From Iphinoe sp. HA4291-MV1 (GTDB lineage: Bacteria > Cyanobacteriota > Cyanobacteriia > Cyanobacteriales > Nostocaceae), in contig JAHHHH010000025.1 in assembly GCA_019359415.1 (NCBI GenBank), forward strand, positions 17,441 to 81,440: a stretch of DNA of 64,000 nucleotides, written 5' to 3'. Below the pieces are notes generated by a model. That model did no database searches. It was not told where the DNA came from and worked only from the letters and a program-made list of their open reading frames with translations. Positions within the stretch are counted from its first letter, which is position 1; the number at the start of each line of letters is the position of its first letter. Position numbers and translations under genes: made by a program. Positions 4,309-20,486 of the stretch are shown piece after piece.

Positions 4309-4347
4309 AAAATAGATTGACAGAAATTTATGAAATCAGGATGAAAT
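4309..4347 (-). promoter_or_regulatory. Direct-repeat promoter of rppAB
   Basis: Read on the minus strand: ATTTCAT-CCTG-ATTTCAT (4347 down to 4330), then 15 bases including CTGTCA, then a -10-like TATTTT (4314-4309). The two 7-mers have an 11-bp period. The site is 77 bases upstream of the regulator start codon. Confidence 0.7.
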
Positions 4348-4672
4348 GGCTTCTTCTTAAAGAAGTTTTACATACGAATGACACAAGACCCTACCGTAGG
4401 CTAAGGTCTTGGAAATAAATAACACAAGTTGCTAATTACAAAATGCTAAACAGTGATACCATTTCTCCATGCTCTTATGAAACAAATTTTCACGGGAGAT
4501 TGCTGTATCTTAAAACAGTCTTAGCTAAATTTATAGCGCTTTGCATTTGAGTGTAATACATCAAGAAATAAAGAACTACAGATGTAGACGCCAAAGGCGG
4601 CTTAAGGCAGGGTACAAGAGATAAATCTCTACTTCATTCAAACAAGAAGCGCTATATAACCAGTGACTCTGC
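4348..4672. other. Intergenic stretch upstream of the direct repeat
   Basis: This stretch separates the rppA promoter from the 3' end of the first DUF2808 gene. It is AT-rich with no credible frame. Near 4390-4411 a short inverted pair (ACCCTACCGTAGG) is visible. No terminator with a T-run was seen. Confidence 0.4.
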
Positions 4673-5179
4673 CTAAATAGGGTAGGTCTGAATTCGAGCT
4701 ACACCAAGTGAAATTTCTCCTTGAGATCCAACATTCTTAGCATAGACCCGGTATATCCAAGGTAGGCTATATCCTGCTTCGCTATTTCCTATAGTATTAA
4801 CTCCATTCATCAAAATTGATAGCTTTGTCTCAAGCTCTACTGGTTGTGAGAAAGCTACCGTAGCTTTTCTGTCATTAATAGAAACTGTTGCTGGGATTTT
4901 TTGACCAGATTGATTTTTCACCTCAATTCCTCTATTAACTCTTAACCCCTCTGGTAAATCAATTACTAGTTCTGCCAGAGATTTTCCTTGGACGTGAACT
5001 TCAATTTTATGAGTAGCATCTGCGGCAACAGTATTGTTAGGATAAGCAGCACTTTTGACCAGATGAGAACCATTGGAATCGCCTGGTTTACCACTTGCCC
5101 AGACAGCAGGAATTGAAGATGTAAGTGCCAGCGTAAATGCAGCAATATAAATCATTTTTCTCATTTTTGTTATCCTCAA
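4673..5179 (-). CDS. DUF2808 exported protein (copy A)
   Basis: Small exported protein of unknown function, 168 residues. An N-terminal signal peptide (charged start, hydrophobic core, ...VWASG) is followed by one DUF2808-like beta-rich domain. Typical stretches are IEVHVQGKSLAELVIDLP, NQSGQKIPATVSIN and the terminal VGSQGEISLGVARI. It is the most divergent of three tandem paralogues (the others at 5275 and 6015), and each has its own copy of the direct-repeat promoter. DUF2808 proteins are almost confined to cyanobacteria and have no assigned biochemical role. The context (two-component system, RND pump) suggests an envelope or metal stress role, which is inference. Confidence 0.8.
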   Translation of the reverse strand: MRITKMRKMIYIAAFTLALTSSIPAVWASGKPGDSNGSHLVKSAAYPNNTVAADATHKIEVHVQGKSLAELVIDLPEGLRVNRGIEVKNQSGQKIPATVSINDRKATVAFSQPVELETKLSILMNGVNTIGNSEAGYSLPWIYRVYAKNVGSQGEISLGVARIQTYPI

Positions 5180-5203
5180 GAATTGACTTATTTTCTTCTC
5201 TAT

Positions 5204-5242
5204 TTATTAGCTTGGCAGTCATTGATGAAATCAAAATGAAAT
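5204..5242 (-). promoter_or_regulatory. Direct-repeat promoter of DUF2808 copy A
   Basis: Minus strand: ATTTCAT-TTTG-ATTTCAT (5242 to 5225), then 15 bases containing CTGCCA, then -10-like TAATAA (5209-5204). The start codon is about 25 bases further on. Same geometry as the site before rppA. Confidence 0.7.
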
Positions 5243-5274
5243 GTTAGCGAGCACTGTTGAAATCTATCTAGACA

Positions 5275-5760
5275 TTAATAGATGCGAAACCGAGCTACAC
5301 CTATAGGAATTTCCGCATCACTGCCAACAAATTTCTCATAAAAGCTGTAGACAGGACCATTACCAAGAGTTGGTCGTTTTACATTTTTTATGTCAATTTC
5401 TAGCTGAGTGTTAGGAGCAACTGGTTCAGAAAAAGCTAGTACTATAGTTCTGTCACTAACAAAAATATTAGTGTTAATTTTCTGACCCTTATCATCTGCA
5501 ACATTAATATCATTGATATCGTTACTCCAAGTGACAGTGGTTGGGACATCAATACTTAACTGGGAAACAGCCTTACTATTTTTAGGAACGTGTACCCGGA
5601 AAGTATGTCTAACAAGCCGCCAGCGCGTAGGAGGGAATTGTACATTCCCATCAATATGGGTAACACTACCATCATTTTGCTTGGCACTTGCATACTGAGT
5701 AGGAATTGAGACTACAATAGCCAGAGCAAATGTAGCAACATATAGAAGTGGTTTCTTCAT
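5275..5760 (-). CDS. DUF2808 exported protein (copy B)
   Basis: 161-residue paralogue of the genes on either side. Signal peptide over residues 1-26 (hydrophobic FALAIVVSIPTQ, cleavage near YASA-K), then a DUF2808 domain: HTFRVHVPKNSKAVSQL, DVPTTV, DDKGQKI, and the C-terminal motif VGSDAEIPIGVARF. It is closer to copy C (6015) than to copy A, so the cluster probably grew by tandem duplication. The promoter sits 215 bases upstream, immediately after the stop of copy C, so it is transcribed from its own start although in line with its neighbours. Molecular function unknown. Confidence 0.8.
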   Translation of the reverse strand: MKKPLLYVATFALAIVVSIPTQYASAKQNDGSVTHIDGNVQFPPTRWRLVRHTFRVHVPKNSKAVSQLSIDVPTTVTWSNDINDINVADDKGQKINTNIFVSDRTIVLAFSEPVAPNTQLEIDIKNVKRPTLGNGPVYSFYEKFVGSDAEIPIGVARFRIY

Positions 5761-5974
5761 ATTTTATTTCCCAGAAATCGATTATGTCAGCTAAAATTTT
5801 GGTTCATTATCAAGAATGAAGTTTTTCTTAATGGATACTCCATATTTGTGTAAAGCCAAGGTCAACTATCCCCTAAATTTATCTATTAATAGAGAGGAAG
5901 TTAGACAAATTACTTTTCCTCGACAAGTTGAACTTGCCGATGATGTTTTTACCAAAGAGGTACACTTCCTCTAT

Positions 5975-6013
5975 TTACTAGAATGACAGGTCAAGATGAA
6001 ATCAAGATGAAAT
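5975..6013 (-). promoter_or_regulatory. Direct-repeat promoter of DUF2808 copy B
   Basis: Minus strand: ATTTCAT-CTTG-ATTTCAT (6013 to 5996), 15 bases containing CTGTCA, then TAGTAA (5980-5975). It lies directly behind the stop codon of copy C, leaving a 215-base leader before copy B. The flank ACCTGTCA is shared with the promoter at 6577-6615, so this block was probably duplicated with the gene. Confidence 0.7.
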
Positions 6014-6014
6014 T

Positions 6015-6509
6015 TTAATGCTTGTCCTCGGAATCTATAGATGTAGGAAACCGAGCGACACCTACAGGAATTTCTACGTCACTGCCAACGACTTTAACCG
6101 AAAGACTGTAAACAGAAGCAGAACCAAGAATTGGTTGTTTTACTTTGTTAAATTCAATGAGGAGTTTGGTTTTAGAAATAATTGGTTCCGGAAAATCTAT
6201 TGTAATTCTTCTACCATTTACAGAAACATTAATGTTAATTTTTTGACCCTTCTCATCCAACACATCAATGTCATTACTCACAGCTACAGTTGATGGAACG
6301 TCAATAACTAACTCGGAAAGAGCATTGTTATTCTGGGGAACGTGTAATTGAAAAGTATGTTTAACAATCCGCCATGAAGTAGAAGGAAATACCACATTCT
6401 TATTAACATTGGGAACCCTATCATCTGTCTTGGCATTTGCATAGCCAGTAAAAATTGAAGCTGCGGTAGCAACACTACATACAGCAGTAGAAATCAGTGT
6501 TCTCTTCAT
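6015..6509 (-). CDS. DUF2808 exported protein (copy C)
   Basis: 164-residue paralogue of copies A and B. The signal peptide ends near residue 26 (TGYANA-K). The DUF2808 domain shows HTFQLHVPQNNNALSEL, DVPSTVAV, DEKGQKI and VGSDVEIPVGVARF. It has a short extra C-terminal tail (PTSIDSEDKH) that copy B lacks. The first gene of the tandem set in the direction of transcription; its promoter is 68-106 bases upstream. No catalytic residues recognised, and function unknown. Confidence 0.8.
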   Translation of the reverse strand: MKRTLISTAVCSVATAASIFTGYANAKTDDRVPNVNKNVVFPSTSWRIVKHTFQLHVPQNNNALSELVIDVPSTVAVSNDIDVLDEKGQKININVSVNGRRITIDFPEPIISKTKLLIEFNKVKQPILGSASVYSLSVKVVGSDVEIPVGVARFPTSIDSEDKH

Positions 6510-6576
6510 TTGGCTGTTAAATTAACAAACTATGTCACTTAGATTGCAGATTTCTTTTTAGTGCATGAACCTTACA

Positions 6577-6615
6577 AAACCAGTTTGACAGGTCACTATG
6601 AAATCAAGATGAAAT
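6577..6615 (-). promoter_or_regulatory. Direct-repeat promoter of DUF2808 copy C
   Basis: Minus strand: ATTTCAT-CTTG-ATTTCAT (6615 to 6598), 15 bases with ACCTGTCA, then TGGTTT (6582-6577), the weakest -10 of the set. It sits 9 bases past the stop of the broken gene at 6625. Confidence 0.65.
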
Positions 6616-6624
6616 TTGAGATAA

Positions 6625-7158
6625 CTATTGCACGTCTATCCAAAAATCAGCAGTGATGATTTTGCCATTACGATTAAACTGACCCCACATTTTATATTTT
6701 CCTGCTTGAGGAAAACTGGTGATAAAATTAACTTCTCCTGCTGGAGTGTTTTTCAATGCATGAGCATGAATGTAGTCTACTTCTGTCAATGGTGATGACT
6801 GTTTGAGGATGACTAAATGTCCTCTTTCTCCTAAATAAGGTTTCAAATCTTTCAGTGGTTGGTTGTTAGCAGCATCTTGTAAGTTGAAGATTAAGTGGAC
6901 TTCCTTAGCAGCTTTAAGAGTTGGTTGAGAAAACTTCAAATTAGCTTTAGTACTACGAAAAGTTTTAGTGGTAATTAGGTCAGTTTTTGTTGACGCAGAT
7001 GGACTGTTACCCGGAACTTGTGCTTTTAATACTGAGACTTGTTCTGCTTTCCCAGCAGGTTTGTAATCACTGAAGAGTGTGTAACTACCTGGTTGAGGGA
7101 AATTAGCTTGAACTTCAAAACGTCCATTCCCCTTATAAGTGGGATGAAGGTAGCCATT
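6625..7158 (-). pseudogene. 5'-truncated periplasmic protein of the efflux cluster
   Basis: Open frame of about 178 codons without a start. It begins after an in-frame TGA at 7159-7161 and no ATG precedes the conserved part. The remaining protein reads as two similar beta domains: one with HPTYKGNGRFEVQANFPQPG and LFSDYKPAGKAE, another with LVILKQ, YIHAHAL and NFITSFPQAGKYKMW. The paired IHPT/IHAH segments and FPQPGxY motifs suggest a repeated domain whose first half is cut. The only available start is TTG at 6939, which would remove the first domain. A hairpin resembling an IS200/IS605 end lies just upstream (7173-7192). It follows the lipoprotein gene in the same direction, so it was probably the last gene of the czcA transcript. 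Confidence 0.65.
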
Positions 7159-7281
7159 TCAATCAGATAATCCCCCTAACTCAAGTTAGGGGATTTAAAC
7201 AAGGAAATAATTTGTTAATCTCCACGAATTAATATGGAGGTACTTTTCATGGTAGAAGTTTGAAAGTCCCACTAGGCGTAA
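7159..7281. repeat. Hairpin relic between truncated gene and lipoprotein
   Basis: Contains the inverted repeat CCCCTAAC-TCAA-GTTAGGGG (7173-7192) flanked by GGATTTAAAC. This resembles the terminal hairpins of IS200/IS605 elements (inference). A related hairpin with the same core words lies at 45497-45527. The truncated frame stops exactly at its edge. Confidence 0.45.
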
Positions 7282-7782
7282 TTAGCGGTTAAAACTAAAA
7301 CGCCCGTTTACCTTCTCACCTTTAACATCTCCAGTAATTTTTACCTGATATTGACCAGTTGCGTTGTCTGATAGTAAGCCTGTGTAGTGTTTGTCTTTTG
7401 CATCATAGGTTAAAGGAACTGTCTTTTGTTTCCCATCAGGTAACTGAACTTGAGCGGTTACTTTAGCATTAGGTACTGTTTCGTGATTATCCCCCTTTAA
7501 CAGATATAAATCCATGTGAGTTCTATTTGCTTCCTTTTCAGGAACAAACTCTAAATGATAAGCTCCTGTCTCCACAACTTGACCTCCATGAGATTCACCA
7601 TGCTGTCCTTCTGTTTTAGCAACAGGAGAAGCTGAGGGTTGGGTACTTGCGGTTGAAGTCGCTGGGCTGTTCTCAGTGTTAGCTGCTTGATTGCTGTTAC
7701 TACAAGCTCCTAAGAAAAGCAGCGCTGCACTTCCTAAAACAATCAAACCTGATTTCAATAAATTCATTGATGGACTCCTCAT
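7282..7782 (-). CDS. Predicted lipoprotein of the RND efflux cluster
   Basis: 166-residue secreted lipoprotein. Signal peptide with lipobox LGAC (Cys27), then a low-complexity Ser/Thr/Ala linker, a His-rich segment (GQHGESHGGQ) and a beta-rich domain ending KITGDVKGEKVNGRFSF. The His-rich part could bind metal, but that is only suggested by composition. It begins 38 bases after the stop of czcA and must be co-transcribed with it. Comparable small proteins follow czcA in other cyanobacteria, where they are unnamed or annotated as FixH-like; I would not assign a function. Confidence 0.75.
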   Translation of the reverse strand: MRSPSMNLLKSGLIVLGSAALLFLGACSNSNQAANTENSPATSTASTQPSASPVAKTEGQHGESHGGQVVETGAYHLEFVPEKEANRTHMDLYLLKGDNHETVPNAKVTAQVQLPDGKQKTVPLTYDAKDKHYTGLLSDNATGQYQVKITGDVKGEKVNGRFSFNR

Positions 7783-7820
7783 TAATTGTTAATAATCGAG
7801 AAAATTGTAGTAAAACAAAC

Positions 7821-10800
7821 TCATGATATCGCCTTTGTAGCTACTTCAACGTTTTGCATCTGTTGAGTCGGCTTTCTCGAAATCAAAAACTTTCCAAACA
7901 GAGAATACAAAGCTGGAATAACTAACAAGGTTAATGCTGTAGAAGTAAACAATCCCCCTAAAACAACTACCGCTAACGGCTGCAAAATTTCCTTGCCAGC
8001 ACCAGTGCCAATGACCAGTGGCACCATCCCTAAAGCTGATGAAAAAGCGGTCATCAAAATAGCAACCAATCGCTCCATAGAACCTTCAACTAAAACTTCA
8101 CGTAAAGGGATACCACTTGCTAACTTGTTGTTGTAATTATCAACTAATAACAAGCCGTTGCGAGTTGCTACACCGAACAGGGTAATAAATCCCACCATTG
8201 AAGCAACAGAAATAATTCCCCCAGCCAAAGCGACAGAAATCACACCCCCAACTAATGCCAAGGGCAAATTAATCATAATCATCACAGTGGCAGGAATTGA
8301 CTTGACAGCAAAATAAATGAGTACCGTGATGGCGAGAAATGCCAAAATGCCTGCCCAAATTAAAGTTTGCGTCGCTTGTTCTTGCGCTTGAAATTGACCT
8401 CCGTATTGAATGTAATACCCAGAAGGCAACTGTACTTGTTGCTTAACTTTGTTGCGAATATCATTGATAACAGAACCTAAATCTCGACCTTTGACATTAG
8501 CAGAGACAACAATTAAACGAGAAACGTTTTCCCGGTTAATGGTATTAGGACCAGTACCATAGTCAACTTTGGCAACTTGAGAGAGAGGAATTTTCTGCCC
8601 ACTGGGAACATCTATGAGCAAATTACTGATAGTTTCTAAATTGTTACGAGCGCTTTCTTTTAACCAAACAACAAGGTCAAACACTTGTTGCTGTTCTAAA
8701 ACTTGAGAGACGACTTGTCCATTGAGAGCAGTTTCAATAATTTGAGCTAAATCTCCCACAGCCAAACCATAACGAGAAGCAGCTCTTCGGTCAAACTTAA
8801 TTTGTACCTGTTTGATGGGTACTTGGGGTTCTAGTTGTAAATCGACAACGCCAGGAATGTTGTTTATGGCTGATTCTACTTGTTTGCCAATAGTGCGGAG
8901 TTGTTTTAAGTCAGAACCGAAGATTTTAACTGCGATCGCACTCCTTACCCCTGATAAAACTTCATCCATGCGGTGGGAAATAAACCCACCAATATTAGCT
9001 GCGACTCCTGGTAATTTGGCAAATTCTTGACGTAGCGTTTCGATACTTCCTTCCCGGTTTTTTATCCCCGAATCACTCAATTCAACATCCAATTCTCCAA
9101 AGTTGACACCACCAACATCGCTATCTCCAGGAGCGCGTCCTGAACGTAACTGTAAGGCTGCAAATCTTTTATCATTTTTAAGAGCATCTTGAATCGCTAA
9201 GTCAGCTGTATTGGTTGCTTCCAGGGATTCTCCAGGATAAAGAGAAGTGGCGATAACGAGTGACCTTTCTTGAAACTCTGGCAAAAATACACGCCCCAAT
9301 GATGGCAGAATCATTATTGAAGCCACAAAGCTAGCTACAGCCCAAATCAAGATAATCTGGGGGCGACGAATAGAAAACGTCAAAGCCGGACGATATACCT
9401 TATGGGAAAAACGTGCTACCCAGGTTTCATCATGTGGTAAACGACGATTCACCAGCAACAGCGCACAGAGTGCTGGGGTTAGCGTCAGCGCTACTAGCGT
9501 TGAAGCCACAATTGAAAGTAAATAGGACACACCCATCGGTGTAAAGATGCGACCTTCCACACCCGAAAGGGCGAAAATTGGTGCAAAGACAACAGCTATA
9601 ATGACTGTGGAAAATAGTACACTGACACGGACTTCAACCGAACCATTAAACACAACTTGCAATGGGTTGATTGGTGTTCCTGCTTGCTGGTTCTCCCGTA
9701 GACGACGGTAAACATTTTCCATGTCTACAATCGCATCATCCACCACTGAACCAATAGCAACAGCCAATCCTCCCAAAGTCATCGTATTAATGCCTTGCCC
9801 AGTCCAATTTAAAATCATCATTCCCAACAGCAAGGACAAAGGAAGGGCGCTTAAACTAATAATGACCGTCCGCCAATTCATCAGAAATAAAATCAGGACG
9901 GCAGAAACGATGATGATACCATCACGCAAAGCGTCCTCAACATTCTTGAGCGAAGCTTCGATAAAATTTTCTTGACGGAAAGTAGCAATCACTTTGACAT
10001 CTTTAGGCAAGCTGGCTTTAATTTCTTCCATCGCTGCTTCTATTGCGCGAGTCACAGTTGGTGTATCCGCTTGCGGCTGTTTGTTAACTACCACAACAAT
10101 CGCCTTCTTGCCGTTTAAAGTCGCGTCACCACGTTTGAGTTGAGCACCGATTTTGACATCCGCAACTTGACCCAATAATATGGGTGTGCCATTTCTAGCA
10201 GTAATTGCTGATTCCTTGAGTTCGTCGATAGACTCAATTCGCCCGACTTCCCGAACTAATAACTCTTGGTCTGGATTAATTAAAAATCCACCAGGAGCAT
10301 TGACATTGGCTTTTTGAGTGGCTTCTGTGACTTCCTTCAAAGAAACATTAAATGCTCTTAGTTTCGCTGGATCGACCAGCACTTGATACTGACGTACATC
10401 CCCTCCAAATACTACAATCTGAGTCACGCCAGGAACAGCCAAAAGGCGATTTTTCACTTGCCAATCAACAATACGCCGTACTTCCATCAAGGGAGTGGTT
10501 TCAGAGGTAAAAGCATATTTGATGACAGCTCCCAAAGGAGAACTGACAGGAGATATTTGTGGTGGTTCTACTCCTTGCGGTAGCTGACTTTGAGCTTGTT
10601 GTAATCGTTCTGTGACTAGCTGGCGAGCACGATAAATTTCTGTATCCCAGTTAAAAATTACTTTCACAACAGATATGCCTACCGCAGAAGAAGAACGTAC
10701 TGTTTCCACTCCGGGAGTACCGTTAATGGCACTTTCTATCGGTCGAGTCACAAGCGATTCAACTTCCTCTGGTGCTAGTCCTGGTGCTTCGGTTTGGATT

Positions 10801-10943
10801 TCCACTTGCGGGGGTGCAAATGCGGGAAAAACGTCCAGTGGCATTTGTGTCAAGACGCGAAATCCCCACAGACTAATGATGATGGAGGCGATGACGACTA
10901 GCCACCGCTGAGCAATCGACCACTTGACGATGGAATTGAGCAT
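7821..10943 (-). CDS. CzcA/NrsA-family RND heavy-metal efflux pump
   Basis: Proton-driven inner-membrane pump that, with an adaptor and outer-membrane channel, exports divalent metal. The 1040-residue length, N-terminal helix (WLVVIASIIISLWGF), two periplasmic loops and two sets of membrane helices fit the family. Helix 4 near residues 395-410 reads AIGSVVDDAIVDMEN. The acid-rich DDAIVD form resembles the NrsA (nickel) group rather than the CusA (copper/silver) group; this is inference, so no symbol is given. First gene of a transcript with the lipoprotein. Its promoter has three tandem half-sites instead of two. Its adaptor is not adjacent but 6.9 kb away at 17811. Confidence 0.92.
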   Translation of the reverse strand: MLNSIVKWSIAQRWLVVIASIIISLWGFRVLTQMPLDVFPAFAPPQVEIQTEAPGLAPEEVESLVTRPIESAINGTPGVETVRSSSAVGISVVKVIFNWDTEIYRARQLVTERLQQAQSQLPQGVEPPQISPVSSPLGAVIKYAFTSETTPLMEVRRIVDWQVKNRLLAVPGVTQIVVFGGDVRQYQVLVDPAKLRAFNVSLKEVTEATQKANVNAPGGFLINPDQELLVREVGRIESIDELKESAITARNGTPILLGQVADVKIGAQLKRGDATLNGKKAIVVVVNKQPQADTPTVTRAIEAAMEEIKASLPKDVKVIATFRQENFIEASLKNVEDALRDGIIIVSAVLILFLMNWRTVIISLSALPLSLLLGMMILNWTGQGINTMTLGGLAVAIGSVVDDAIVDMENVYRRLRENQQAGTPINPLQVVFNGSVEVRVSVLFSTVIIAVVFAPIFALSGVEGRIFTPMGVSYLLSIVASTLVALTLTPALCALLLVNRRLPHDETWVARFSHKVYRPALTFSIRRPQIILIWAVASFVASIMILPSLGRVFLPEFQERSLVIATSLYPGESLEATNTADLAIQDALKNDKRFAALQLRSGRAPGDSDVGGVNFGELDVELSDSGIKNREGSIETLRQEFAKLPGVAANIGGFISHRMDEVLSGVRSAIAVKIFGSDLKQLRTIGKQVESAINNIPGVVDLQLEPQVPIKQVQIKFDRRAASRYGLAVGDLAQIIETALNGQVVSQVLEQQQVFDLVVWLKESARNNLETISNLLIDVPSGQKIPLSQVAKVDYGTGPNTINRENVSRLIVVSANVKGRDLGSVINDIRNKVKQQVQLPSGYYIQYGGQFQAQEQATQTLIWAGILAFLAITVLIYFAVKSIPATVMIMINLPLALVGGVISVALAGGIISVASMVGFITLFGVATRNGLLLVDNYNNKLASGIPLREVLVEGSMERLVAILMTAFSSALGMVPLVIGTGAGKEILQPLAVVVLGGLFTSTALTLLVIPALYSLFGKFLISRKPTQQMQNVEVATKAIS

Positions 10944-11027
10944 TTTTTAGACCCCTGGCTGGGATATTTGCTTTCCAATGCTGCTCAGCCAGTTGGGATG
11001 AGTAGCGATGTTAAAGGTTCGGCACTG

Positions 11028-11066
11028 TACTTACTTTCTCAAATCAAGATGAAATCAGGATGAAAT
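11028..11066 (-). promoter_or_regulatory. Direct-repeat promoter of czcA, with a third half-site
   Basis: Minus strand: ATTTCAT-CCTG-ATTTCAT (11066 to 11049), then CTTG and a third, degenerate half-site ATTTGAG (11044-11038) still in the 11-bp register, AAAG, then -10-like TAAGTA (11033-11028). The start codon is 84 bases beyond the -10. Confidence 0.72.
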
Positions 11067-11214
11067 CTAAATTGAAAGCAGATTTATTTAAATTGGGGAG
11101 TAAGTAGCGAGCGTGATATGAGCCGCCATGCAACGTCTGAAACTGTTGCTACGAAAGGGTTACAAAAATATCCCTTTGACATTCTTGATATATACTCCTT
11201 TTTCTTTCGCTGCA

Positions 11215-11922
11215 TTAGCTTTTTAAATTAACAGAGTGTCCCTGCCTTAATCTCTGTAGTTTCAGCATCGTGATACATATCATCAACCACAAAAATCCAA
11301 CACCATAACCTGCAATTACATCAGTCGGCCAATGTACTCCTAAATACAGCCGACTGATGCCAATTGCCACAATTAAAATAACTGCTAAAGTGTAGATAAT
11401 CTGTGAAAATTTAGGATAATGAGTAGCTAGTATATAAGCAATAAAACCGTACAGTACCATAGAACCTAGTGCATGACCACTGGGAAAACTAAAAGACTTC
11501 TCAGAAATCAAAAGAGTCCAAAGTTGCGGACGAGGTTTAGAGAAAAATAACTTTAACCCTCTATTTAAAATTAACCCTCCTAAACAGGTAAGCACAAAAA
11601 TATATGTTTCGACTCGGTAATGTCGCCACCAAAGTGTTCCTAAAGTCAATGCTGCGACGACTACTACTGTCGTTGGATTACCAAGATTCGTTATAGCCAG
11701 CATGAAATTATCTAGACTCGGATTAGCAAACTGATGCAACCATAAAAGAAAAGATGTATCAAATGCAAAAGCTTCTTTCTCTAAAACTTCTTCAGCAAGC
11801 TTGGCGACAACAAACAGAATCAGCAGACAACCAGTAAGTCCAACAATACCAATTGTGGCGATTAAGGAAATCAAACGAGGATGTATATAACGCAACCAAA
11901 AGATAGAAATGTTTCGTATCAT
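11215..11922 (-). CDS. PAP2-family membrane phosphatase
   Basis: 235-residue integral membrane phosphatase with about six hydrophobic helices. The three catalytic motifs of the PAP2/PgpB superfamily are present: KLFFSKPRPQ (K-x6-RP type), PSGHA, and SRLYLGVHWPTDV with the catalytic His. Such enzymes remove phosphate from lipid substrates such as phosphatidate, phosphatidylglycerophosphate or undecaprenyl pyrophosphate; the substrate cannot be told from sequence. It stands alone, 56 bases downstream of the cut MFS gene, and has no copy of the island's direct-repeat promoter. Confidence 0.88.
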   Translation of the reverse strand: MIRNISIFWLRYIHPRLISLIATIGIVGLTGCLLILFVVAKLAEEVLEKEAFAFDTSFLLWLHQFANPSLDNFMLAITNLGNPTTVVVVAALTLGTLWWRHYRVETYIFVLTCLGGLILNRGLKLFFSKPRPQLWTLLISEKSFSFPSGHALGSMVLYGFIAYILATHYPKFSQIIYTLAVILIVAIGISRLYLGVHWPTDVIAGYGVGFLWLMICITMLKLQRLRQGHSVNLKS

Positions 11923-11978
11923 ATGTTACACTTTGCACTCACAAAAGATATGGCTGGGAATGAAAACCTTACCCTCTG

Positions 11979-12383: not shown

Positions 12384-12392
12384 TTAAACGCA

Positions 12393-13142: not shown

Positions 13143-13376
13143 TTCTTTTTCACAAGAAAAAATAGTAAGTCATCATGAATCCATTCAGATTAGTGCAGTC
13201 TGATAGAAACAACTAAATGATACGCTTGAAAAGTTCTAAGTTATGTGGAATAAGCACTACGTATAGCTTTAAAAGCTATTGAACAGTGAAGGGATGGGTC
13301 AGGCGAGCGCAAATTGCCAACCAAATCGCCTCTTCACAAACAGAAAAATGCCCAAGTTCGATAAGGCGATCAATTA

Positions 13377-14162
13377 TCAATCTTCTTGGTCAATCGGCAG
13401 TAAGCCTGGTTTCTTCCGCTTAAGGCTTAAGTAAATCACTAGGCTGATGATTATAGAGAGAAAAAGCACACTGGTTCCAACCGTACCATAGCCAAAACCA
13501 CCATTTTTAGTTGGTTGGGATAGTAAATCACCTATCGATGCTCCAAACGGACGAGTCAAGATGTAAGCTAACCAAAATGCCAAAACTGCATTCATTCGGA
13601 AGTAATAATAACCAGTCGCTATCATTGCAATTGAAGCGCCAAATACTAATGCTGATTGTGCATAACCCAACCCCGAAGCCTCTGCTAAGAGGTCTCCTGT
13701 TGAAGTACCCAAGGCAAACGTAAGTAAAATAGCCACCCAGTAGAAAAGCTCTCTTTTAGCTGTGTTGATGGAGTGCATGGCTAATGTCTTTTCGCTTAAA
13801 TACCAAAACACAAAAACTGCCAACAAGACAAAACTAAAAACTATGGTAGTTGTCACCAAACTAACTCCAAAATCGTCTACCAATCTATCAGTAATTAACG
13901 TACCAACGATACTTATCAAAACGACCACAAGCCAGTAACTCAGTGGGATATACTGCTTAAGCCTAAACTGATTTAAAAGCGCAATCAGCAACAAGCCGCT
14001 CATAATATATGATGTAACGCTTAAACCAAGGTTCAGCGTTCCTGATAGAAAATCTGCCGCAGTTTCACCTACTGTGGTTGCCAGAACCTTAATAATCCAG
14101 AAGTAAATTGTAACCTCTGGAACCCTGTTCAACATTGCTCCTACTTGCTGAGGTTTTTTCAT
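13377..14162 (-). CDS. COG4705 multi-span membrane protein (copy 2)
   Basis: 261-residue paralogue of the preceding gene with the same fourfold plan: TVGETAADFLS, IVGTLITDRLV, ALGTSTGDLLA and PFGASIGDLLS, each followed by a Gly-containing turn and a helix. The two copies are moderately similar but differ in base composition, so they probably did not arise from a recent local duplication. An internal ATG (14135) preceded by AGGAG is a possible alternative start. The divergent PepSY gene shares its upstream region, where a direct repeat GTCAAGA-AATA-GTCAAGA lies. Function unknown; a transporter or channel is plausible. Confidence 0.77.
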   Translation of the reverse strand: MKKPQQVGAMLNRVPEVTIYFWIIKVLATTVGETAADFLSGTLNLGLSVTSYIMSGLLLIALLNQFRLKQYIPLSYWLVVVLISIVGTLITDRLVDDFGVSLVTTTIVFSFVLLAVFVFWYLSEKTLAMHSINTAKRELFYWVAILLTFALGTSTGDLLAEASGLGYAQSALVFGASIAMIATGYYYFRMNAVLAFWLAYILTRPFGASIGDLLSQPTKNGGFGYGTVGTSVLFLSIIISLVIYLSLKRKKPGLLPIDQED

Positions 14163-14204
14163 AACTTGAATTGGTGCAGAGTGATTGCACTCTACACACC
14201 AAAG

Positions 14205-14222
14205 GTCAAGAAATAGTCAAGA
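14205..14222 (+). promoter_or_regulatory. Second direct-repeat motif GTCAAGA-AATA-GTCAAGA
   Basis: Two perfect 7-mers with an 11-bp period, 43 bases upstream of the COG4705 copy 2 start. The geometry is OmpR-like but the word differs from the ATTTCAT sites. The 13-mer AATAGTCAAGATT found here recurs inverted at 14331-14343, in front of the divergent PepSY gene. Confidence 0.5.
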
Positions 14223-14330
14223 TTTGATTGAAAGCGGAATTTACTCGATATAGATGAACATAAAATCGCTGAAATCTCTAATTATCAGGCTTATTTCACG
14301 ATTTGATCTTGAATTTTGTCAACTCTAACC

Positions 14331-14343
14331 AATCTTGACTATT
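14331..14343 (-). promoter_or_regulatory. Inverted copy of the AATAGTCAAGATT word
   Basis: The minus strand reads AATAGTCAAGATT, identical to the word overlapping the direct repeat at 14205-14222. It lies 61 bases before the PepSY start codon. A shared regulator for both divergent genes is an inference. Confidence 0.4.
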
Positions 14344-14403
14344 CCTGGACTTTTATTACCTACGGTGAAAATACAAATCCAAATTTCCGGAGATTTTACA
14401 AGC

Positions 14404-14898
14404 ATGAAAACTTCAACAAAAATCGTTTTGGCAGCAGCTTTTGTTGGTACTTTAGGAATTTCTGGATTGGCACGAGTTGTCGGAACAAAACAACCACAAT
14501 CTCCAGTAGCAATTGTGCGTCAGCATCACAGCACTACTCAAGTTGCTGAAGCCAGTGATGGCGACGGTGAAACTAACGACGATGCACAAGAACAGCAAGA
14601 AGCAAATAAACTGCAAACTCTAGCTAAAATTACAGCACAACAAGCACAGCAAGCAGCTGAAACATCTGTAGGAGGTAAGGCTAGCCGCGTCAAACTCGAA
14701 AATGAAAATGGCAACTTAGTTTATGCTGTAGAAATTGGTCAGCAAGATGTTAAGGTCGATGCTGGTAATGACAAGGTTCTCTACACTGAGAATACCAATC
14801 AACAAAACGAAAACATTGAAGCCACTCGCCCCAAGAGTAGCATTCAAGTTCAAGAAGCCAGTGATGGTGATGGTGAAACCAATGATGATGGTCATTAG
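14404..14898 (+). CDS. Exported PepSY-domain protein with duplicated acidic motif
   Basis: 164 residues from the ATG at 14404, which has GGAG at 14389-14392; the longer frame from 14335 lacks a ribosome site. The signal peptide (KIVLAAAFVGTLGISGLA) is followed by an acidic linker, a PepSY domain (QAAETSVGGKASRVKLE, LVYAVEIGQ, VKVDAGNDKVLY) and a C-terminal tail. The sequence EASDGDGETNDD occurs twice, once before the PepSY domain and again at the extreme C-terminus. DGDGE-type loops often bind Ca2+ or Mn2+, so a metal-responsive role is possible. It is followed by the DUF2127 gene in the same direction. Confidence 0.8.
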   Translation: MKTSTKIVLAAAFVGTLGISGLARVVGTKQPQSPVAIVRQHHSTTQVAEASDGDGETNDDAQEQQEANKLQTLAKITAQQAQQAAETSVGGKASRVKLENENGNLVYAVEIGQQDVKVDAGNDKVLYTENTNQQNENIEATRPKSSIQVQEASDGDGETNDDGH

Positions 14899-15080
14899 GT
14901 AACTTAAAACCTATGCTATCTCAGTTGCAAGCATCAGGAGTTAAGTAAAACACTTCTGTAGCAGACATTAACTAAACATCAACTACATAGGGATTGTTGA
15001 AGATCAACTTCATCAATCTCTTATTTTTAAATTCTGGATAATCAGAATAAAGTAGACATGAAATAATTTGAAGAGGTTAT

Positions 15081-15530
15081 GTGAAAAATAAGCGTCCACC
15101 TGGTTTATTAGCAATTATAATTTATAAAGCCTTTGTTGCTTCACTCTTAGCTATTACTTCTGTCGCCTTGCTATTAGCACTAAGACATCACCAAAGCTTA
15201 GCTGCATTTTCGGAATCTTATATTTTAGAAACAAAACTCAAAATGATTGAATGGCTAATAGATAATTTTTTGAATATTAGTCCCCAAAAATTATATTTTA
15301 GCGGTATAGCTATTGGAGTTTATGCTATTGTAACGGCAATAGAAGTAGTTGGTTTATGGTATGATAAGTCTTGGGCAACACTGTTAGTGCTTGGACTAGT
15401 TGGCATTAGCATACCTCCAGAAATATTTGAGTTAATTAAAGGGATAACAATACTAAAGTTCATCGTATTTTTAGTGAATATAGCTGTATTTTGGTATTTG
15501 CTACGTCATTTTCCTAAGCATAAAAGGTAA
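15081..15530 (+). CDS. DUF2127 membrane protein
   Basis: 149-residue integral membrane protein with four predicted helices (LAIIIYKAFVASLLAI, GIAIGVYAIVTAIEVVGLWY, ATLLVLGLVGISIPPE, FIVFLVNIAVFWYLL). These match the DUF2127 family, whose function is unknown. The start is GTG at 15081 behind GAAGAGG. It lies 182 bases after the PepSY gene on the same strand and faces the second sensor kinase gene. A palindrome, TCTTGA-TAT-TCAAGA at 15542-15556, sits in the convergent gap but has no T-run, so I do not call it a terminator. Confidence 0.75.
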   Translation: MKNKRPPGLLAIIIYKAFVASLLAITSVALLLALRHHQSLAAFSESYILETKLKMIEWLIDNFLNISPQKLYFSGIAIGVYAIVTAIEVVGLWYDKSWATLLVLGLVGISIPPEIFELIKGITILKFIVFLVNIAVFWYLLRHFPKHKR

Positions 15531-15611
15531 TGTTAATCAAGTCTTGATATTCAAGAAGCTGGTAAACACATTTTATTGTATTAGTTTCGTCTGTCTAGGA
15601 CACAAAAAATA

Positions 15612-16886
15612 CTAAGAGGAAACCGACGGTAAGCGCACGGTAAAACAACTACCAGCCTCTAATTGACTTGTGACACTAATTAATCCACCGTGGTTTTGGG
15701 CAATAGCTTGTGCGATCGCTAACCCCAAACCAGAACCACCCTCCCAATAAGAACGAGACCGATCCGCCCGCCAAAAGCGCTCAAAAACTTTATCGATATG
15801 CTCTGGTGCAATTCCCACACCTGTATCTTGCACATTCACATAAACCTGAGAACCAATACGACTAGTTTTAATTTCAACTACGCCTCCTGATGGTGTATAG
15901 TAGAGTGCATTTTCAATTAAATTAGTAAACAGTCGCGTCAATTGAACGGAATCACCCGTCAGGTAAAGATTCCCTGCTAATTGAGATATTAAGTTAATTT
16001 GCTTAACTTCAGCTTGAGGTTTATAAAGTAGCACCAAGTTCTCCAAGATCAACGTTAAATTGAGAGTATTCCAATTATGATTGGGAACTTTATCTGTGCG
16101 TGCTAAAAACAATAAATCTTCTGTGAGGCGAGTCATCTGGTTAGTAGCGCTAGCGATCGCCTGAAATTTTTCTGCATCTTTTGGTCCTATTTCTTCTGGG
16201 TATAAGAGTGCCAAATCAGCATTAATTTTGATTGCCATTAATGGACTGCGTAGTTCGTGGGAAGCATCAGCAGTAAACTGTTTGAGCCTTTGAAAACTAT
16301 CCTCGATTGGCTGCATCGCTTGACGAGTTAGTAAAATTCCGCCAATTCCACTAAGAACCAAAGTCATAATAATTCCACCGCCTAATCCCCAGTCCAGTTT
16401 TTGAAGAGTTTCATCAAATTCTTCTAGGGATTGACTCACCCTCACATACCCAACCAGGTGATTATTATCGCTAGCTATTATTGGTACAGTCACTCCTTGG
16501 ATACGAACTTTGTCTACGTGACGCAGACCGTCTAGGGCGCTGGACTCACCACCTTGAACTTGTACCATTTTACTTGGCAACAAGGGCAAAGTTAAGACAG
16601 TTTGTCCTTGTTGGGCAATCAAATGTCCTTGGGTATCAAACCACTGTAATGCTTGATGAGCAGCAATTAAGTTTTGTGGGCGAAAGTCAGTTTCAATCGT
16701 AAGGCGATTTGCTTCAAACTCTGCATTTGCAGCCGCACCTTGTCCGATGGCTATGAGTCTATCTGTTGTTTGTTGAGTCAGACTGCGGGTGAAAGCAACT
16801 CGGACTGCTAGAGCAAATATTCCCAGCAGCGATGCGAACACTACCAAGTAAGAAAACAATAACCGATAACGAATTTTCTTAAACAC
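15612..16886 (-). CDS. Sensor histidine kinase of the second two-component system
   Basis: 424-residue membrane kinase. Helix 1 lies at about residues 11-31, an extracytoplasmic domain at 32-165, and helix 2 near 168-187. The H-box FTADASHELRSPL carries His210, and N (NALYYTPSGG), G1 (DTGVGI) and G2 (GSGLGLAI) boxes follow. Architecture is close to the RppB-type kinase at 2131, including the spacing of QPIEDSF...FTAD, but the sensor domains differ, so the two probably answer different signals. It follows its response regulator gene with a 90-base gap. The stimulus is unknown; nearby metal-efflux genes make metal sensing plausible. Confidence 0.85.
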   Translation of the reverse strand: MFKKIRYRLLFSYLVVFASLLGIFALAVRVAFTRSLTQQTTDRLIAIGQGAAANAEFEANRLTIETDFRPQNLIAAHQALQWFDTQGHLIAQQGQTVLTLPLLPSKMVQVQGGESSALDGLRHVDKVRIQGVTVPIIASDNNHLVGYVRVSQSLEEFDETLQKLDWGLGGGIIMTLVLSGIGGILLTRQAMQPIEDSFQRLKQFTADASHELRSPLMAIKINADLALLYPEEIGPKDAEKFQAIASATNQMTRLTEDLLFLARTDKVPNHNWNTLNLTLILENLVLLYKPQAEVKQINLISQLAGNLYLTGDSVQLTRLFTNLIENALYYTPSGGVVEIKTSRIGSQVYVNVQDTGVGIAPEHIDKVFERFWRADRSRSYWEGGSGLGLAIAQAIAQNHGGLISVTSQLEAGSCFTVRLPSVSS

Positions 16887-16976
16887 ATTCTTGTGACTGT
16901 AAAATTATCAGTTATTAACTAAGATTTATCCCGTGACCACTGCTGCAAAGCAGCCAATTATTTATAGTAAAATATT

Positions 16977-17651
16977 TCACTTGTTACTAAGACGATAACC
17001 AATGCCGTAAATATTTTCAAGAAAGTCTTCTGAACTTCCAGTTGCTCTGAGTTTATTCCGCAAATTGGTAATATGAGTTTTGATACTTCCTTCCCCAGAA
17101 GATTTATCAATTTCCCACAGTTTGTCAAGGATTACCGAACGACTCACAACTTGATTTGGGTTTCTCAAAAAATATTCTAATATCATATATTCTTTAGGAG
17201 TTAACGACAAAAGATTCCCTGCATAAGTAATCTGGTTGGTAGCTGGGTCTAGTTGTAAATCACCGCAGATTAAAATCGGTGGGCGAGTTTCTGGACTTCT
17301 TCGAGCCAAAGCTCTAATACGTGCTGCTAACTCTTTGAGGTCAAAGGGCTTGACTAAATAATCATCAGCACCAGCATCGAGTCCAATAATTTTATCTGTC
17401 GTTGTATCTCGTGCTGTCAGCATTAAGATAAGAGCGTTGGATGAAGCAGCACGTAAACGCTGACATAGAGTGATTCCATCTAATTTAGGAAGCATTAAAT
17501 CTAATAAAATTAGTTCGTATAATCCTGATTGAGACCATTCCCATCCCTCAATTCCATCAATTGTTATATCTACAATATGGTGTTGGCGTCTTAAATACTC
17601 AGCTAATGGCTTGGCAATGCGATCATCATCTTCAACTATTAAAATTCTCAT
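16977..17651 (-). CDS. OmpR-family response regulator of the second system
   Basis: 224 residues. The receiver domain has the acidic cluster EDDD, phospho-acceptor Asp51 (LLDLMLPKLDG) and Lys in LVKPFD. The C-terminal winged helix ends with the usual GIGYRLS. It is a candidate owner of the GTCAAGA direct repeats near 14.2 kb, or a second reader of the ATTTCAT sites. No direct-repeat site is visible in its own 159-base upstream region. Transcribed ahead of the kinase gene at 15612. Confidence 0.87.
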   Translation of the reverse strand: MRILIVEDDDRIAKPLAEYLRRQHHIVDITIDGIEGWEWSQSGLYELILLDLMLPKLDGITLCQRLRAASSNALILMLTARDTTTDKIIGLDAGADDYLVKPFDLKELAARIRALARRSPETRPPILICGDLQLDPATNQITYAGNLLSLTPKEYMILEYFLRNPNQVVSRSVILDKLWEIDKSSGEGSIKTHITNLRNKLRATGSSEDFLENIYGIGYRLSNK

Positions 17652-17810
17652 ATCGCTTTAGCAGTCTCGGATATTGTTACAATTCCTTTGGCAGCATTGA
17701 TGAATTGAAAATACACCTTTTAGGACGAAAGACTCACGTTCGTTCTCAAAAACTTGGTGTGTAGTTGTGCAAGAAGTACACATATATGCACTGCAACGAT
17801 TCTATGTTTA

Positions 17811-19484
17811 TTATAAGTATTTATCTGAACTTGATATCACTTTTGATTCCTGATCAGTAACGCGGTGGTTGTCATCCCATGCTGGCGATTCTGTGGAAGA
17901 TTCTTCAGATGAATAGGCAAATTCTGCTGATGGTTGAGATTTTGTGCGACGACCAGACCAGAAAGCACCAGCCATAAATGCGACAGTAGCCAGCGCAGTT
18001 CCTCCTCCTGTTGCAATCAACCACAGGGGTACTGGCAAGTTAGGTGTTTTGGCTTCAGTTGGCTGTGAGGGAGCGAGTGTGTGTTCGTCTTCTTTTGGCT
18101 GGCTACCCCCTCGTAAAGACTGAGCATAAAGTTGAGGAGCACGCTGAGTAACAATTGAATCCCCCTCGAATAAACCAGTCTTGACCTCAACTATGTCCCC
18201 AGAGGTTTGACCTAAAGTGACTTCAGTTGCTTGAAAAGCATTACCATTTTGCACATAAACTTGTTTCTTTCCATTCGCCTCCACTATAGCCGAACTAGGA
18301 ATAGTCAAGGTAGCAGTCAATGTTTGGTCTGTCAAAACTTCTAGTTCTGCAAACATCCCTGGCTTGAGAACTCCACCGGGGTTATCTATTTCAGCTTTCA
18401 CAGGAACAACCCGTGTTTCGCCTTCCACAACTGACCCAACCACGGCAATTCGTCCAGTAAATGTGCGATTAGGCACAGAAGCAACCTTCAAGCTTACTCG
18501 TTGACCCGTCTTTACCTTTCCCAAATCTTTTTCATATATATTTGCAGTAGCATAAACTCGACTGTCATTCACAATCGTCATCAGTTTGCCACCTGCATCC
18601 TCGAATGATTGACCAAGAGTAACTTCTCTGTCAGCAACCCTGCCAGAAATGGGAGCCGTCACCGTTACCAGTCCCTTAGCATTGGCGCTGTTTCCCAGTT
18701 GTTGCAACCGAGTCTCATAATTAGTATTACTCAGTTGAATACGTTTTTTTGCTACCTCAACTGCTGATTTCGCACGTTTGAGTTTATTTTCTGCATCAAT
18801 CACGTCCCGGCGGCTTGAAGCTTTGGTGAGTTCGGCTTTAGCTTGTGCTAGCTGGGTTTGGGATTCCAAGGCATCACGTCGTGGCAAAGCACCAGAATCT
18901 GCTAACTGCCTGTCCTTGTCAGACTTCTCTTGAGCGAATGCCACTTGGCTTTGTGCTTCGGCTATTTCAGCTGCGGCTATTTGCTGATATTTTTCGTAAT
19001 TTTGTTGAGCCAGCCGTAAATCAGCTTCCGCTTGCTGCAAATCAGCCTGACTTTGGGCAAGTTTTTCTTGAGAGTTCACCCGCAGTTCCACCAAGTCAGG
19101 ACTGGTTACAACAGCAACTGGTTGACCTTTTTTCACGACTGCACCAGGCTCTACCAACAACTCAACCACTTTCGCCTTGGAAATTGGGGTATTGACTTCC
19201 ACTTTTTGACTAGGCAAGGTTTCAATCTGTCCAGTGGTTTTAATACCAACAGCTAATTGCTGACGTTTCACTGGCTCAATTTTAATTCCTAAACGTTTTG
19301 CGGTTTGGGCATCAACTTGAATAGAGCCACTATTTTGAGAGGCTTCACTTGCTCCTTGAAATTCATTTCCGTGTCCGCCATGAGCTAAAACAGTTGAGGG
19401 ATTAGCTAATAACAGCAGGCTTACGAGTGAACCAGAAACACAACGAATTGCTGTGAGTTGTTGGGAACGCAGAGAATTTAGCAT
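17811..19484 (-). CDS. RND efflux periplasmic adaptor (CzcB/HlyD family)
   Basis: Membrane-fusion protein that links an RND pump to an outer-membrane channel. Order: signal/anchor helix, a His-rich HGGHGNEF segment, barrel-sandwich halves (VEPGAVVKKGQPVAVV), a long alpha-hairpin coiled coil (about residues 135-260), beta-barrel domains, and a C-terminal membrane helix (LWLIATGGGTALATVAFMAG), which is unusual for the family. The frame is open to 19562, but the promoter's -10 sits at 19572-19567, which puts the transcript start near 19560. The internal ATG at 19484 is therefore chosen (558 residues). Its probable partner is CzcA at 7821. Confidence 0.85.
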   Translation of the reverse strand: MLNSLRSQQLTAIRCVSGSLVSLLLLANPSTVLAHGGHGNEFQGASEASQNSGSIQVDAQTAKRLGIKIEPVKRQQLAVGIKTTGQIETLPSQKVEVNTPISKAKVVELLVEPGAVVKKGQPVAVVTSPDLVELRVNSQEKLAQSQADLQQAEADLRLAQQNYEKYQQIAAAEIAEAQSQVAFAQEKSDKDRQLADSGALPRRDALESQTQLAQAKAELTKASSRRDVIDAENKLKRAKSAVEVAKKRIQLSNTNYETRLQQLGNSANAKGLVTVTAPISGRVADREVTLGQSFEDAGGKLMTIVNDSRVYATANIYEKDLGKVKTGQRVSLKVASVPNRTFTGRIAVVGSVVEGETRVVPVKAEIDNPGGVLKPGMFAELEVLTDQTLTATLTIPSSAIVEANGKKQVYVQNGNAFQATEVTLGQTSGDIVEVKTGLFEGDSIVTQRAPQLYAQSLRGGSQPKEDEHTLAPSQPTEAKTPNLPVPLWLIATGGGTALATVAFMAGAFWSGRRTKSQPSAEFAYSSEESSTESPAWDDNHRVTDQESKVISSSDKYL

Positions 19485-19566
19485 CGCGCTTAAAAAGTCC
19501 TTGAGTACTGGAGGAAAGGAGTTGCGATAGCGTATTTGTGTTAGTGGGCGCTCTTGATGCACACAT

Positions 19567-19605
19567 CTTTTAGTTTTGCAGCAAGAAATGAAATTAGGAT
19601 GAAAT
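19567..19605 (-). promoter_or_regulatory. Direct-repeat promoter of the czcB-type gene
   Basis: Minus strand: ATTTCAT-CCTA-ATTTCAT (19605 to 19588), 15 bases including CTGCAA, then TAAAAG (19572-19567). It lies in the 57-base gap after the DUF305 gene, so czcB has its own start even though DUF305 is directly upstream. Confidence 0.7.
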
Positions 19606-19619
19606 CGTGCTTGCTCTTG

Positions 19620-20333
19620 TTACTGGTTGTACCAAGCTTGTCGCCATTGCTTCATTTGGTCAATTTCTTTCTGTTGAGAGGTGATGATATTTTGAGCCAG
19701 TTTCTTGATTTCAGGGCGCTTGGACTTACTCAATGCATCTTGCGCCATTGTTATTGCCCCTTCATGGTGCGGAATCATTGCATTGATGAAACGTAGGTCA
19801 AACTCGGCATCAGCAGCCCCCAAATCCTTATCCATTCGCATAGCTTTAGATTGTTCAGGAGACATTGCTATTGTCTGATTCTGCTGGGCATTCCAAGCCG
19901 TTGCCGTGCTTGGTGCTTTGGGATACCATGCTGTGCGCCACTGTTTCAACTCAGCAATTTCTTTGTTTTGAGCTTTGATGATTTCGCCTGCCAGCTTTTT
20001 GATTTCGGGACGTTTTGATTTCTGTTGGGCTTCTTTTGCCATCTGGGTAGCACCTTGATGGTGTGGAATCATCGCATCAATGAACCGCAAATCGTAGTTG
20101 GCATCCGCTGGACCATTATCCATTGCCGTGCTATGATGCATACCACTGCCGTGGTCCATCTGTTGCTTGTCGCTAGCCTCAGTTGCGGTAGAATTTGGAG
20201 CTTGGGTTTCGTTTTGGGAAGTAGTTGTAGAACAAGCTGTAAGCACGCCGCTTGTTAAGGAAGCGAGTGTTATGAAAGTCATTGCAAAAAAACCACTTTT
20301 CCAAGAAATACGTTGCATAGACTTGAAATTCAT
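19620..20333 (-). CDS. Double DUF305 lipoprotein
   Basis: 237-residue secreted protein with two DUF305 domains. The signal peptide ends in a lipobox-like VLTACS. Each repeat has the hallmark DLRFIxAMIPHHxGA, then SKRPEIKKLA, IIxxQxxEI and MKQWRxAWY. DUF305 is a four-helix fold whose HH pairs have been proposed to bind copper or other metals (family knowledge, not shown here). A Met/His-rich linker (KQQMDHGSGMHHSTAMD) precedes the first repeat and supports metal binding. Its own direct-repeat promoter lies 115-153 bases upstream, placing it in the same regulon as the efflux genes. Confidence 0.87.
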   Translation of the reverse strand: MNFKSMQRISWKSGFFAMTFITLASLTSGVLTACSTTTSQNETQAPNSTATEASDKQQMDHGSGMHHSTAMDNGPADANYDLRFIDAMIPHHQGATQMAKEAQQKSKRPEIKKLAGEIIKAQNKEIAELKQWRTAWYPKAPSTATAWNAQQNQTIAMSPEQSKAMRMDKDLGAADAEFDLRFINAMIPHHEGAITMAQDALSKSKRPEIKKLAQNIITSQQKEIDQMKQWRQAWYNQ

Positions 20334-20447
20334 TACTTACTATAGTTTCTTCTATTTTGAAATCTCCAGTTAGCTGGAGTGTCAAGTGCTATTTTCCAAC
20401 GGGGTACAATAGCCAGTTTGTTATGGGAGCAATACAGCTGCACTAAT

Positions 20448-20486
20448 TGTTTAGTATTGCAAAGGCAAATGAAATTAGGATGAAAT
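20448..20486 (-). promoter_or_regulatory. Direct-repeat promoter of the DUF305 gene
   Basis: Minus strand: ATTTCAT-CCTA-ATTTCAT (20486 to 20469), 15 bases including TTGCAA, then TAAACA (20453-20448). The 18-bp core is identical to that of the czcB promoter. Confidence 0.7.

Follow-up and report, generated by a model that had tools for sequence, protein, structure and literature searches.

Seven exact copies of a direct repeat, ATTTCAT-N4-ATTTCAT, precede regulator, efflux and DUF2808 genes in a 64,000-nucleotide stretch of the cyanobacterium Iphinoe sp. HA4291-MV1 (contig JAHHHH010000025.1, positions 17,441 to 81,440 of the forward strand), hereafter called the window. These sites (boxes) are very probably bound by the response regulator of the RppA/CopR type whose gene is located at 3537-4232 (RR1), which would activate the surrounding cluster in response to a metal, most likely copper. 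The observation is real and strong, and it is largely explained by a known regulator. What looks new is the breadth of the regulon and a composite promoter, as the box and the kind of regulator are already known. All seven sites lie on the minus strand where an initial annotation, made from the sequence alone, had placed them, and they are listed below with their scores from a matrix trained on other organisms.

4330-4347, minus strand: box 1 (ATTTCATCCTGATTTCAT), 97 bases 5' of the RppA/CopR-type regulator gene; 37.6 bits
5225-5242, minus strand: box 2, 5' of the DUF2808-like gene 4673-5179 (45 bases to a TTG start, 60 to the ATG at 5164); 38.6 bits
5996-6013, minus strand: box 3, 235 bases 5' of the DUF2808 gene 5275-5760; 47.8 bits
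6598-6615, minus strand: box 4, 88 bases 5' of the DUF2808 gene 6015-6509; 46.0 bits
11049-11066, minus strand: box 5, 105 bases 5' of czcA (copA-like); 44.4 bits
19588-19605, minus strand: box 6, 5' of czcB (copB-like); 39.6 bits
20469-20486, minus strand: box 7, 135 bases 5' of the CopM-family (DUF305) gene; 38.9 bits

Specificity and promoter architecture

Based on shuffled sequences, 0.01 exact sites are expected in the window. If up to three mismatches were permitted, the window contained 19 sites, which is the chance level (mean 17.35), and the signal therefore resides in the exact matches. Scanning of the genome assembly (7.36 Mb in 140 contigs, 95% complete) resulted in eight exact ATTTCAT-N4-ATTTCAT sites, seven of which are inside the window, and none for a reversed-pattern control; the motif is thus not scattered at random. 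Removal of the leading A from both units resulted in 11 exact matches in the genome compared to three for the control, making the seven-base unit the more specific form. The scoring matrix was then trained exclusively on sites from other organisms. Of these, 348 had enough flanking sequence (loci L068-L158), and 172 were retained after removal of 75-base contexts with fewer than 20 differences. With this matrix the seven boxes ranked first, with scores of 37.6-47.8 bits, while the remainder of the window stayed below 5 bits and the best score among 10 resampled windows was 3.6 bits. A chance origin was rejected based on the low expectation, the empty control and this gap in scores. As every other position in the window scores below 5 bits, the earlier statement that the interspersed PAP2, COG4705 (DUF347) and PepSY genes are not preceded by a site also holds.

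In all seven cases the box is followed by exactly 15 bases and then a hexamer beginning with T (position +16, counted from the end of the box), as first reported. A TG at +8/+9 and an A at +12, absent from the initial annotation, are likewise found behind all seven boxes. Among the 172 deduplicated sites from other organisms, T+8, G+9, A+12 and T+16 are present at 86, 78, 86 and 87%, respectively, with all four bases in 102 sites and at least three in 140. Together these elements make up what looks like a new composite promoter, ATTTCAT-N4-ATTTCAT-N7-TG-N2-A-N3-T, in which the second unit covers the -35 region. We met no description of TG-N2-A as a core element in the literature, although no search was aimed at this element. 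The placement of the second unit agrees with that of a class II activator resembling PhoB. The Pho box is likewise made up of direct repeats of seven bases, located over the -35 region with an 11-bp period, with the unit CTGTCAT instead of ATTTCAT. The initially proposed placement of the repeat over the -35 region is supported by comparison.

Some of the boxes have further local features. Box 5 is flanked by imperfect units in the 11-bp register at 11038 (two mismatches) and 11060 (three mismatches). The GTG start of czcB at 19562 is just 25 bases from box 6, suggesting that a later start codon is likelier. Directly upstream of box 4, the open reading frame (ORF) 6625-6939 has no Pfam match and is possibly what remains of a longer gene.

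The regulator and its relation to CopRS

Two two-component systems are encoded in the cluster, the second of which was not in the initial annotation.

3537-4232, minus strand: RR1, RppA/CopR-type OmpR-family response regulator; NCBIfam RppA 416 bits (cut-off 250)
2131-3540, minus strand: HK1, RppB/CopS-type sensor histidine kinase; NCBIfam RppB 758 bits (cut-off 400)
15612-17651, minus strand: second two-component system, consisting of RR2 (16977-17651) and HK2 (15612-16886)

RR1 shares 64% identity with CopR of Synechocystis, which is also matched by the NCBIfam RppA model (384 bits, cut-off 250), and it falls below the cut-off of the PhoB model (186 of 296 bits). In a phylogenetic tree RR1 groups with CopR, and a 100/100 split separates 19 RppA/CopR rows from four others that include RR2; many forks within the 19 rows are weak, and 9 of the 20 inner branches of the tree are open. 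The sequence SNVVAAQ[IVM]RL[LIV]R[RH][KQ]L is common to all 19 RppA/CopR rows and absent from the four others. The helix compared, which we take to be the recognition helix of these regulators, reads SNVVAAQIRLLRRKL in RR1, SNVVAAQVRLLRRKL in CopR and GSIKTHITNLRNKL in RR2, the first two being nearly identical. Judged by clade and helix, RR1 is the likely owner of the boxes, and the comparison thus supports the earlier proposal of a single OmpR-type regulator of the RppA type. Autoregulation of its gene through box 1 is likely. When four genomes with close CopR relatives were searched, each contained one match at E 1e-60, with a second (60%) in one of them. The gene for HK1 overlaps that for RR1 by 4 bp, and its product is 53% identical to CopS. 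The outer part of HK1 contains a Cys pair that is present in six of seven aligned RppB/CopS rows and is lacking in HK2 and one RppB row; this pair is a possible metal site.

The genes downstream of the boxes were largely as annotated, the exception being the DUF2808 call for 4673-5179, which is below the Pfam cut-off.

4673-5179, minus strand: DUF2808-like protein; Pfam 21.7 bits (cut-off 25.3)
5275-5760, minus strand: DUF2808 protein; Pfam 43.2 bits (cut-off 25.3)
6015-6509, minus strand: DUF2808 protein; Pfam 35.2 bits (cut-off 25.3)
7282-7782, minus strand: CopC homologue (53% over 109 amino acids), absent from the initial annotation
7821-10943, minus strand: czcA, CusA/CzcA-family heavy-metal RND pump; 69% to pSYSX CopA
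17811-19562, minus strand: czcB, CusB/CzcB-type adaptor; 47% to pSYSX CopB
19620-20333, minus strand: CopM-family copper-binding protein; NCBIfam CopM 134.8 bits (cut-off 90)

The product of 4673-5179 aligns with the DUF2808 copy 5275-5760 at 33% identity, and its N-terminus resembles a signal peptide by eye. All three DUF2808 proteins have hydrophobic N-termini and one His-x4-His stretch each (also by eye), and a role in metal binding would be a guess. The pump shares the membrane-segment signature AIGSVVDD[AS]IVDMEN with CopA of Synechocystis, the CopC-homologue gene lies 38 bases after czcA and is probably in the same operon, and the CopM-family protein has two DUF305 stretches with 14 Met and 7 His residues. 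Copper is the best guess for the signal because of the CopM family, the CopA-like pump signature and CopC. Of the metal or envelope stress originally suggested, metal resistance is supported by comparison, and no separate evidence for envelope stress was found.

The closest known system is CopRS of Synechocystis sp. PCC 6803. On pSYSX the copM gene is preceded by one site, whose end is 50 bases away, and the copS-copB gap contains another; the copM site is identical to boxes 1 and 5 over 17 of 17 bases. The repeat that precedes copM and copB on pSYSX also precedes their relatives and the regulator gene here (boxes 7, 6 and 1). The two systems have in common the box, a related regulator and kinase, and relatives of CopM, CopB, CopA and CopC. 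They differ in that there are seven such promoters here compared to two in Synechocystis, the regulator has its own box here and follows copM in Synechocystis, three DUF2808 genes are added here, and the copA- and copB-like genes are separated here, each with its own box. A putative CopR sequence is in print, and its original description is reportedly that of Giner-Lamia 2012. It is given as TTCATN4-5TTCAT (PMC4182526; this paper and those cited below are represented by excerpts), and as the repeat of the window is found before copM and copB on pSYSX, the initial description of the regulon as undescribed does not stand. CopRS is reported to control copMRS and copBAC, with copper inducing CopM, and three CopM homologues of Anabaena 7120 are also copper-induced (PMC4335983).

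Conservation and breadth of the regulon

Loci around RR1 homologues were surveyed using the best 80 of 352. TTTCAT-N5-TTTCAT occurs 279 times in these loci, compared to 19 times for all 15 other spacers (0 to 15) combined, and six shuffled control words occur in 0-3 copies each. The full seven-base unit was found 259 times with spacer 4 and three times with the remaining 11 spacers (0 to 11). At least one TTTCAT-N5-TTTCAT site was identified in 75 of the 80 loci. Exact sites were also present in all of 11 cyanobacterial plasmid stretches (L068-L078, picked by hand from 30 records listed), with 2 to 9 sites each. Across 60 relatives, TTTCAT-N5-TTTCAT occurs 434 times compared to 189 for the reversed control, with counts above the control in 43 genomes and below it in 10, indicating that many lone matches elsewhere are noise and that the matrix is required.

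The sites lie in front of genes and point towards them. Within 350 bp downstream, 148 of the 172 sites have the start of an ORF with 80 or more amino acids (median 244 amino acids; none for 24), compared to 45 sites in the mirror direction (median 118 amino acids). Pfam assignment of the 135 distinct downstream ORFs resulted in 27 DUF2808 proteins, 20 DUF305 proteins, 16 CusB-type adaptors, 16 OmpR-type regulators, 10 RND pumps, five each of CemA, PALP and OprB porin, and four YtkA. As these loci had been picked for RR1 or the pump, the neighbours of those genes are over-represented, and loci were therefore also taken by DUF2808 similarity alone, resulting in 30 loci from 30 genomes, out of 34 with a match among 99 family genomes (own included). 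If a matrix match of at least 25 bits within 700 bp upstream was required, a test in which the genomes may partly overlap with the training set of the matrix, 27 of the 30 DUF2808 loci were positive, compared to none of 30 loci selected for RR2 homologues and 7 of 30 selected for DUF2231 (own included, the own copy heading an oxidase operon). The presence of the box before DUF2808 genes in many relatives suggests a broader copper response than so far reported. None of the excerpts of open-licence literature describes DUF2808 as a CopR target, and papers on Anabaena copper genes, NrsR or promoters added nothing on the box to the work cited here. A DUF2808 protein of Anabaena 7120, All7597, is among the exoproteome proteins (PMC10957091), which fits secretion of these proteins. 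A search of solved structures with the DUF2808 profile resulted in just seven chains, all homeobox and with E 0.28 or worse, and these were taken as chance matches.

In a genome of the same genus, 21 matrix-level sites are located in 73 kb of one contig. They are located upstream of genes of the DUF2808, adaptor, pump, regulator, porin and PALP classes and of one ORF with no match in Pfam (10 of 12 distinct downstream ORFs were scanned, and 8 of the 21 sites have no ORF by the rule used). In this genome an OprB/SLH porin gene is also preceded by three boxes, spaced at exactly 113 bp (L291:3316-3558). On three plasmids (L070:13132, L071:36495 and L073:19170) a box is followed by a CemA/PxcA-type gene and then a sigma-factor gene, an order suggesting that the regulator may control a sigma factor. 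Among the 30 records listed, one from a Chroococcidiopsis thermalis PCC 7203 plasmid, classified as conjugative, has a czcA copy with 90% identity to that of the window, and the other 29 reach 78% at most, which suggests transfer; an SMC-like gene at 30099-33749 in the window indicates that the cluster may be chromosomal here.

Two further loci of the Iphinoe genome qualify the initial view of a local regulon.

Contig C68, 1249-5743 (locus L228), minus strand: eighth exact box (L008:1501); 34.7 bits
Contig C95, 7596-12541 (locus L227): second pair of the RppA/RppB type, with a box and the gene for a ClC channel (CBS and USP domains) behind it

The eighth box is located about 410 bp before the gene row DUF2231-DUF2231-COX2-COX1-COX3, and a second site, with one mismatch, is found 77 bp from it. 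The site on contig C95, between the kinase gene and the ClC gene, has the shorter form TTTCAT-N5-TTTCAT and scores 32.1 bits. The regulon is therefore local in that seven of the eight exact sites are in the window, and it is not confined to it, given the eighth before a cytochrome oxidase operon and the shorter form before the ClC gene. We lean towards the view that the CopR/RppA box of Nostocales and their relatives marks an extracytoplasmic metal-defence regulon far larger than the two operons of Synechocystis. Its commonest sampled target would be DUF2808 (probably secreted), joined by porins, CemA/PxcA-type proteins and, in some genomes, the copper-containing cytochrome oxidase operon, all via the composite promoter with its TG-N2-A core element.

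Proposed mechanism and alternatives

The RppB/CopS-type kinase HK1 would sense metal outside the cytoplasm, most likely copper, and phosphorylate RR1. RR1 would then bind ATTTCAT-N4-ATTTCAT head to tail; with the T at +16 taken as -12, the repeat extends from about -45 to -28. Bound RR1 is predicted to replace the -35 element and to recruit RNA polymerase to a promoter consisting of the conserved TG-N2-A spacer element and a -10 hexamer that begins after 15 bases. Expression would thereby be switched on for RR1 itself, for CopM, for the efflux components CopB, CopA and CopC and for the three DUF2808 proteins, which are probably secreted. The sequence itself shows the box with its phasing and orientation, the kinds of target genes, the conservation and the kinship of RR1 with CopR, and from these the binding, phosphorylation, activation, role of copper and DUF2808 function are inferred.

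Several observations weigh against this model. No exact box was found in 5 of the 80 RR1 loci, and 42 of the 80 have none within 500 bp upstream of RR1. Three of the 30 DUF2808 loci have no box, and a DUF2808 relative is present in only 34 of the 99 family genomes. If one mismatch is permitted, TTTCAT-N5-TTTCAT occurs 114 times in the Iphinoe genome, which is the control level (113). In a loose check, in which the 26-nucleotide leader (PMC4890671) was mapped onto pSYSX, the copM start of Synechocystis was placed about 4 bases past the hexamer and not 6-8. As excerpted, PMC4182526 reports that CopR controls only copMRS and copBAC in Synechocystis and that other genes with TTCAT repeats (mntC, nrs) are unresponsive. 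The TTCAT units are separated by N6 in the window and on pSYSX, compared to the printed N4-5; as the printed spacing also misfits the pSYSX copM and copB sites, we refer to the cluster as a variant that works like the CopRS regulon. Finally, the RppA protein sll0797 is credited with a different motif (PMC13421787). RppA is the NCBIfam name for both RR1 and CopR, and published descriptions set the NrsRS/RppAB system (sll0797-sll0798) apart as a nickel system with another motif. The name RppA for RR1 thus needs care.

The alternative that retains the most weight, although we consider it rather unlikely, is that the RppA paralogue on contig C95 uses the boxes, either alongside RR1 or in its place, possibly in a shared two-regulator network; this would be compatible with the model above. 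The paralogue is 66% identical to RR1 and carries the same helix, which also counts against sole ownership by RR1, and the 32.1-bit box follows its kinase gene. RR1, on the other hand, sits in the cluster with its own box, and the paralogue is on a long branch of its own in the tree.

It is less likely that nickel, cobalt or more than one metal acts as the signal in place of copper, in an NrsRS-like system, a change that would leave the anatomy of the model intact. TTCAT repeats are also reported in the divergent promoters between nrsRS and nrsBACD of Synechocystis (PMC4182526), NrsRS being a nickel system (PMC4284471). PcopM responds to Zn, Cd and Ni as well, though less strongly than to copper (PMC4890671), and the metal specificity of the kinase cannot be read from its sequence here. 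Opposed to this are the CopM-family protein above its cut-off, the CopA-like pump signature and the CopC homologue, together with a box core identical to the pSYSX copM site.

Ownership of the boxes by RR2/HK2 is very improbable. RR2 is OmpR-type, and the pair is encoded inside the cluster downstream of czcB, from where it is possibly transcribed by read-through from box 6. RR2 and HK2 are, however, below the RppA and RppB cut-offs (231 of 250 and 265 of 400 bits), and RR2 differs from RR1 and CopR in helix and clade. An exact site is present within 1.5 kb in 1 of 30 RR2 loci compared to 50 of 80 RR1 loci, and with none of the 30 RR2 loci having a matrix match within 700 bp upstream, RR2 was rejected as the owner. 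Next to no credence was given to boxes that are alike merely through promoter copying with duplicated genes or a mobile repeat: the DUF2808 genes are paralogous (52% and 33% identity to the copy 5275-5760) and relatives of the cluster are located on plasmids, but 172 sites in distinct contexts survive deduplication with spacing, TG-A and T16 conserved, and an origin by duplication only was rejected.

With RR1 as the regulator of the boxes, DUF2808 gains a testable place in metal defence, and the very-low-noise promoter signature makes the CopR-type regulon of a cyanobacterium readable from sequence. The size of this response is variable, its genes are often located on plasmids, and cytochrome oxidase, a copper enzyme, may be among its targets.

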